Source of the DNA: Clostridia bacterium
Lineage (GTDB): Bacteria > Bacillota > Peptococcia > DRI-13 > SM3-B62
Direction of reading: 5' to 3'
DNA: 37,148 nt
Assembly (NCBI GenBank): GCA_018432615.1
Contig: JAHDSQ010000052.1
Location: 1-37,148 of the forward strand
A program made the position numbers and the translations under genes. Below the pieces are notes generated by a model. The model ran no database searches, was not told the DNA's origin, and saw nothing but the letters and a program-made list of their open reading frames with translations. This document shows, in pieces, positions 36,755-37,148 of the stretch. Every line of letters starts with the position of its first letter. Position 1 is the first letter of the stretch.

Positions 36755-36782
36755 TTGACATATGCCAAAAACCTTGTATAGT
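36755..36782 (+). promoter_or_regulatory. promoter of the small glycine-rich protein gene
   Basis: TTGACA (36755-36760) and TATAGT (36777-36782) are 16 bases apart, about 45 bases before the coding start. Confidence 0.7.
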
Positions 36783-36810
36783 AGAATTATAAAGAACATA
36801 TGCCAAAAAC
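36758..36810 (+). repeat. direct repeat of ACATATGCCAAAAAC around a promoter
   Basis: The 15-base sequence occurs at 36758-36772 and 36796-36810, a 38-base period. One copy lies between the -35 and -10 hexamers and one lies downstream of the start of transcription. The arrangement suggests a regulator site pair. Confidence 0.7.
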
Positions 36811-36827: not shown

Positions 36828-37025
36828 ATGCCAAGAGGAGACGGAACCGGACCTATGGGTACCGGCGGAGGCGGCGGTCAAGGCAGACAAGGTGTAACAG
36901 GAACCGGAAGGGGAAGAATGGGAGGTCCTGCAAGTGCAGGCCCTGTAGGGTATTGTGAATGCCCTAAGTGTGGAACTAGAGTGAATCATAATCGAGCAAA
37001 TCCTTGCAACCTGCACTCCCGCTGA
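36828..37025 (+). CDS. small glycine-rich protein with a zinc-ribbon-like CxxC motif
   Basis: This 65-residue protein starts MPRGDGTGPMGTGGGGGQG, the opening typical of small clostridial proteins (DUF5320-like) found beside dinitrogenase iron-molybdenum cofactor-type genes. The tail CECPKCGTRVNHNRANPC has a CxxC pair and a later C, like a zinc or iron knuckle. AGAGGTGA precedes the ATG. An upstream in-frame ATG at 36762 lies in the promoter. Function is unknown; a metal-binding accessory role is suggested by the motif. Confidence 0.7.
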   Translation: MPRGDGTGPMGTGGGGGQGRQGVTGTGRGRMGGPASAGPVGYCECPKCGTRVNHNRANPCNLHSR

Positions 37026-37093
37026 CACATAACGAGCCAGCGACAAAAAGACAGAAAAACCCTAAAATAACTTGCTTTTTGGCACACGAATAG

Positions 37094-37148
37094 TTGCTTT
37101 AATCCTCGTTATGTGATATACTACACATAACGAGGTGATGTTCTAATG
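37094..37148 (+). promoter_or_regulatory. promoter with a palindromic operator and start of the next gene
   Basis: TTGCTT (37094-37099) and TATACT (37117-37122) are 17 bases apart. CCTCGTTATGTG (37104-37115) and CACATAACGAGG (37124-37135) are perfect 12-base inverted repeats that enclose the -10 hexamer. The ribosome site GAGGTG lies partly in the right arm, and an ATG at 37146-37148 opens a gene that leaves the window. A further copy, CACATAACGAG, lies at 37026-37036. Confidence 0.8.

Follow-up and report, generated by a model that had tools for sequence, protein, structure and literature searches.

Which gene is controlled by the repeats at the right edge of this contig? The window (the whole stretch of 37,148 nucleotides that was analyzed) ends with three copies of CACATAACGAG, and a first-pass annotation, made from the sequence alone, proposed that they control a gene that starts at the window end. 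We found that they make up the left end and the promoter of an insertion sequence (IS) of the IS1634 family and are not regulatory DNA of a host gene. We then considered how their arrangement might regulate the transposase.

Three Repeats and a Promoter Dyad at the Edge of the Window

The three copies recognized in the first-pass annotation are exact (37026–37036, forward strand; 37105–37115, reverse strand; 37124–37134, forward strand), and the 37,148-base window contains no other exact copy; three exact 11-mers inside 110 bp are not a chance occurrence. Copy 1 directly follows a TGA codon (37023–37025), and its end lies 67 bases before a perfect inverted repeat formed by copies 2 and 3. Each arm of this dyad is 12 bp long, which exceeds the word common to all three copies by one base, and the arms are separated by an 8-base spacer. 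As had been proposed, the dyad lies over a −10 hexamer: TATACT occupies its center, 17 bp from TTGCTT (Table 1). A consensus promoter scanner did not list this promoter, and TTGCTT has only three of the six consensus bases. The annotation had also suggested a motif search across the genome, and when up to three mismatches were allowed, the dyad was found in the 3.16-Mb genome only in four left ends of the IS. An exact search of genome and viral contig collections with the dyad 30-mer gave no match.

An additional short stem, CGCTG/CAGCG, is predicted around the left terminal inverted repeat (TIR) motif (37020–37042, CGCTGAC...GCCAGCG) in the window and its close relatives; it was not seen in several other relatives.

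Table 1. Features of the IS left end and its insertion site in the window
Feature	Position	Strand	Remarks
Small ORF truncated by IS	36828..37025	+	last codons and stop supplied by IS
Target-site duplication TTGCAA, left copy	37004..37009	.	right copy on contig C27
IS1634-family IS, left end	37010..37148	+	139 bp, cut by contig end
Left TIR	37010..37036	+	27 bp, 22/27 identical to right TIR
Copy 1 of CACATAACGAG	37026..37036	+	inner half of left TIR
−35-like TTGCTT, transposase promoter	37094..37099	+	3/6 consensus bases
Dyad left arm (copy 2, inverted)	37104..37115	+	within 17-bp −35/−10 spacer
−10 hexamer TATACT	37117..37122	+	at center of dyad
Dyad right arm (copy 3)	37124..37135	+	start expected from −10 falls within; overlaps SD
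Shine-Dalgarno (SD) GAGGTGA, transposase gene	37132..37138	+	first four bases within right arm
Transposase start codon ATG	37146..37148	+	last window bases; by comparison with L017 and relatives

The Window Ends in an IS1634-Family Element

A whole-genome search found the last 139 bases of the window in identical form at four contig edges (C18, C20, C34, and C35), and the window very likely ends where the assembler stopped at the IS repeat. Four right ends, likewise at contig edges (C21, C22, C27, and C63), carry the last 38–40 residues of the transposase. The middle of the window's element was not found in the genome assembly, and we identified the gene beyond the window through its relatives. 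In G129, a sequence that matches all 139 bases at 79% leads straight into a gene of 536 residues (relative L017), which matches the NF033559 IS1634 profile with 322.5 bits against a cut-off of 100; relative L020 scores 305.3 bits against the same cut-off. The C-terminal 40 residues of the transposase of the window's element are 85% identical to those of L017. The annotation was thus right that a start codon lies at the window end, but the gene is the element's own transposase and not a host gene.

The passages of PMC2266710 that deal with the IS1634 family give a length of 1500–2000 bp, ends of the form C-----YT, and target duplications of 5–6 bp. The element resembles the family in its ends and its target duplications as well as in the profile of its relatives: the ends CCTGCACT and CCTGGATT fit the C-----YT form given in Table 1 of PMC2266710, and the target duplications are of the expected size (see below). 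Relative L017 is 1765 bp long; the window's own element is cut by the contig end. The left TIR is CCTGCACTCCCGCTGACACATAACGAG and the right TIR, read inward, is CCTGGATTCCCGTTAACTCATAACGAG.

The CCTG tip suggested the IS1380 family as an alternative assignment. This was rejected: the genome, in which the gene copy is incomplete, contained no match to PF13701, and both L017 and L020 fell far under the cut-off of the NCBIfam IS1380 profile. The predicted structure of the transposase was of too low a quality (mean pLDDT 56.6) to locate a DNA-binding domain, and a sequence search for a solved relative found none at E 0.1.

The same genome carries a second IS1634-type element, L025 (G000 C58:145570-147138), whose transposase is 50% identical to that of L017 and whose gene has one stop codon. 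Its TIR motif differs (TATATCTA), and this version is carried by its 17-bp dyad.

The Insertion Truncated a Small Gene

The left flank of the element ends with TTGCAA, and contig C27 starts with TTGCAA after the right end. Target duplications of 6 bp were found in three of the four end pairs (TTGCAA, TATGAA, and CTGTAC). The ends of the fourth pair (G000 C34 left and C22 right) are flanked by TTGTTC and TTGCAT, which do not match, and they may represent two different copies or a rearrangement. When the flanks of the window's element are aligned to a genome of the same genus, G001, the match of the left flank ends at base 1682 and that of the right flank begins at base 1677. G001 therefore contains the empty site, with the 6-bp overlap TTGCAA and an intact small gene, whose protein continues to its end as ...NPCNTIKCPQCGSTMTRA. 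Because the site in G001 is empty and the gene there is intact, the stop codon of the small protein in the window belongs to the IS. The first-pass annotation had placed one repeat copy immediately after this stop codon; the position is correct, but the copy is part of the TIR and the stop codon was supplied by the IS.

From its CxxC motifs, the small protein appears to be zinc-ribbon-like, although the truncated protein matched no Pfam or NCBIfam family. The −10 hexamer of the truncated gene is flanked by two direct copies of CATATGCCAAAAAC (36759–36772 and 36797–36810). The genome has no other exact copy, both are kept in G001, and the pair is a possible operator.

The Dyad Is Conserved among Related Elements

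We gathered relatives in several steps. An initial 56 loci were followed by a search in which 85 of 398 genomes had a match, not all of this group; the 85 genomes yielded 29 new loci, for which 18 stretches were taken, and one further locus was added separately. Three of eight plasmid records were fetched, two of which had a usable 5′ end. Apart from the window, the 5′ end was usable in 92 locus records (many represent one element twice), which formed 47 clusters at 85% identity. Removal of five short G077-end records and addition of the two frameshifted loci L065 and L088 and of the window gave 45 leaders; omission of L053, L087, L123, L080, and L075, the leaders of which are deleted, interrupted, fused, or degenerate, left 40. 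For L104 (left TIR) and for L025, L108, and L141 (ends), the boundaries were assigned manually after inspection, and the occurrence of these sequences in the loci was checked. The dyad of L113 was picked wrongly by the script and is counted as a miss.

An inverted repeat better than the best of 225 mononucleotide shuffles was present in 20 of the 45 leaders, although that of L127 is a different hairpin further upstream. A −10 hexamer lies within 5.5 bp of the dyad center in 33 of the 40 leaders; a TTG-type −35 at 16–18 bp combined with a fair −10 was found in only 22. Related dyads accompany the IS in other Firmicutes, in archaea, and on an Aliarcobacter plasmid. The copies from archaeal genomes (L051, L054, and L059) have kept the dyad, but they are among the seven leaders that lack a central −10. 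The annotation had held that its reading would fail if the next gene were constitutive and the copies were not conserved; the dyad is conserved in relatives, and the reading is not refuted in this way. A regulatory role for the dyad over the −10 is likely. Conservation has a limit within the family: a comparable dyad was absent from 12 more distant IS1634-type loci (22%–35% identity over the matched part), in which the best inverted repeats within 75 bases upstream of the earliest possible start (some starts are unsure) measured only 4–9. Judged from these leaders, the dyad seems to go with CCT...TCCCG-like ends.

Three of the omitted leaders appear to be rearranged. In L053 and L087, the leader between the TIR motif copy and the right arm of the dyad is missing just upstream of the transposase start, as if it had been deleted by recombination between direct copies; the L053 gene contains stop codons, and the alignment of L087 is partial. 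The dyad arms of L080 seem to be separated, upstream of position 1501, by approximately 80–100 bp of sequence with inverted ends of its own, resembling a small insertion.

The Dyad Arm Tends to Co-vary with the TIRs of the Same Element

The motif shared by the TIRs and the dyad varies from element to element (CATAACGAG, CATAACTA, CATGACGAG, TATATCTA, TTAACCTAC, ATAACTACA, TATAGTATAC, and TATAACGTGT), and in these cases the dyad arm carries its own element's version. We measured the longest word common to the right arm of the dyad and the TIR, and we permuted the TIRs among elements 20,000 times. For the right TIR (n = 34), the mean with the element's own TIR was 9.24 bases, compared with 6.41 for permuted TIRs; for the left TIR (n = 37), the means were 7.70 and 5.71. 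None of the 20,000 permutations did as well in either case, and control pieces of leader taken just upstream of the dyad showed no significant excess over permuted TIRs. The result was the same in the 22 elements that have no CATAACGA in a TIR (right TIR, 9.39 versus 5.48, n = 18; left TIR, 7.50 versus 4.88, n = 20; 0 of 20,000 for both). As the permutations ignore relatedness, we also compared nearest-neighbor pairs defined by transposase identity. The element's own right TIR was the better match in seven pairs, equal in eight, and worse in none, and its own left TIR was better in seven, equal in five, and worse in five; judged in this way, co-variation is stronger at the right end than at the left.

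There are exceptions. The word common to the arm and the right TIR is no longer than 6 bases in three of the 34 elements (L104, L106, and L088), and L088 has kept a symmetric dyad that is unlike its own TIRs. In L107 the dyad has changed and the left TIR has not (its right TIR was not found). Overall, these comparisons indicate a tendency of the dyad arm and the TIRs of one element to vary together. An 8-mer from the inner right TIR was found in the 75-base leader of 30 of 34 loci and in none of the 34 within the 220 bp inside the right end; these 34 loci include some of those left out of the 40 and one with a doubtful right TIR (L112).

Read-Through Transcripts Are Predicted to Hide the Shine-Dalgarno Sequence

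The annotation had suggested that the upstream copy might pair with the left arm in RNA. This is not the predicted fold: in the window leader, the two arms of the dyad pair with each other, and the resulting 12-bp stem is the main feature of a structure of −32.4 kcal/mol (mean of 200 shuffles, −19.5 kcal/mol). Transcription from the element's own promoter is expected to begin within the right arm, and the hairpin can therefore be relevant only to transcripts that read through from outside.

We compared the predicted accessibility of the SD in read-through RNA, in native RNA starting at the right arm, and in read-through RNA with a shuffled upstream part. The mean unpaired fraction of the SD was 0.15, 0.51, and 0.36, respectively (37 of the 39 elements computed). 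The SD was predicted to be less accessible in read-through RNA than in native RNA in 34 of 37 elements and less accessible than in the shuffled control in 33, so that three and four elements, respectively, were contrary cases. Native RNA lacks the left arm, so that its contrast with read-through RNA is partly built in, and the shuffled RNA provides the fairer comparison. The SD was picked by a script, and the picks in L112, L114, L125, and L051 were poor. In the window's element, the predicted accessibility was hardly lower in read-through than in shuffled RNA (0.29 versus 0.32), because only four SD bases lie in the arm. The full SD string lies within the right arm in eight of the 40 elements, and in six of the 40 the arms extend past the TIR word by 9–17 bases in the direction of the SD. 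Five distant members have perfect arms (26 bp in L111, 22 bp in L137 and in L064, 19 bp in L105, and 17 bp in L025) that continue through the SD region.

Discussion

The positions of the motif copies relative to the promoter and the SD fit a double lock, consisting of a DNA operator for the transposase and a hairpin in read-through mRNA. We consider it probable, with some reserve, that the window ends in the left end of an IS1634-family element carrying a transposase control site of this kind. The co-variation suggests that the transposase recognizes the inner TIR motif at the ends of the element, for transposition, and that it may also bind the same motif where it is paired over the transposase promoter. 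Transposase bound there would cover the −10 and block RNA polymerase, and the transposase would thus repress its own synthesis. The element's own mRNA would start in the right arm and leave the SD free, whereas mRNA from a host promoter would carry both arms and, according to the folding predictions, form the hairpin that hides the SD. An IS that landed in an active gene would then not be switched on by its neighbor.

It is unlikely that either half of the lock accounts for the dyad on its own. If the dyad acted only as an RNA hairpin that hides the SD of read-through mRNA, its likeness to the TIRs would be inherited and functionless. The long arms that extend through the SD region in L064, L105, L025, L111, L137, and L114, the symmetric arms of L088, and the folding contrasts described above are all consistent with this explanation. 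However, a hairpin has no need of co-variation with a site approximately 1.6 kb away, and the arm and the right TIR have at least 9 bases in common in 27 of 34 elements despite the differences in motif. If, conversely, the dyad were only a DNA operator through which the transposase represses its own promoter, the hairpin would be a by-product. The match of the arm to the element's own TIR, which holds between nearest neighbors at the right end, and the −10 at the center of most dyads point to an operator, but an operator alone does not explain why, in six of 40 elements, symmetry continues in the direction of the SD for at least 9 bases outside the TIR word or why L088 and L107 have a symmetric dyad that lacks the TIR motif. 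This explanation is about as improbable as the first.

Extra binding sites are common in many transposons, and the dyad might consist of subterminal transposase-binding sites that aid assembly of the transposition complex at the left end and have no regulatory role. The confinement of internal TIR-motif copies to the left end would agree with this proposal, as would the distance from the tip to the start codon, which is mostly 120–148 bases. As this distance is fairly constant, spacing cannot separate subterminal sites from a promoter role, and the leaderless L053 and L087 do not decide the matter because of the stop codons in the former and the partial alignment of the latter. Assembly does not require arms that bracket the −10, as they do in 33 of 40 elements, or that reach the SD, as they do in some, and we regard this proposal as quite unlikely. 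It is highly improbable that a host regulator uses the dyad as an operator to control a host gene: the dyad does sit over a −10, but the gene downstream is an IS transposase, the genome contains the dyad only in the IS left ends even at three mismatches, and related dyads move with the IS between distant hosts.

Each half of the proposed double lock has precedents. In IS10, IS50, and IS200, mRNA structure that hides the ribosome binding site protects against read-through transcription. The predicted behavior of the element described here is similar, in that inverted arms flank the expected native start and only read-through RNA would fold and hide the SD; it differs in that its arms contain the inner TIR motif and are placed over the −10. 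A transposase or an end-binding protein can also repress a promoter within its own end, as does InsA of IS1. Here, too, the sequence recognized at the ends would double as an operator, but the promoter site is a separate symmetric pair approximately 70 bp inside the TIR. In ISPpu9, according to PMC8450116, pairing of the ribosome binding site limits translation of the transposase through small RNAs and the structured 5′ UTR of its own mRNA. This limitation resembles the one proposed here, but the ISPpu9 fold forms in the element's own mRNA, whereas the window's element needs RNA from outside.

Within the IS1634 family, the window's group differs from the 12 more distant loci in having the dyad. 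The passages on the family in PMC2266710 describe its ends as poorly conserved, the word "promoter" is absent from the text of that paper, and we found no report of a TIR-motif dyad at an IS1634 promoter in the titles, abstract openings, and passages searched. Although the element itself is ordinary, its promoter dyad, which co-varies with the ends, seems to represent a previously undescribed variation on known forms of IS self-control. The immediate consequence for this contig is a corrected reading, with a truncated small protein and an IS at the contig end.

For a family that is called poorly characterized in an experimental paper (PMC4549789), these elements offer natural pairs of TIR and dyad motifs that differ together, so that recognition and self-control could be tested by motif swaps without a prior structure. 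A tentative extension, which may well be wrong, is that one motif has three readers: the transposase at the ends, a pair of transposase molecules over the promoter, and the ribosome through the mRNA hairpin. As the ends and the operator would compete for the same protein, every additional copy would both supply transposase and draw on it, and in this way an element would register how many copies of itself were present. If this is true, the end specificity of such an element would drift only if four sites changed together.
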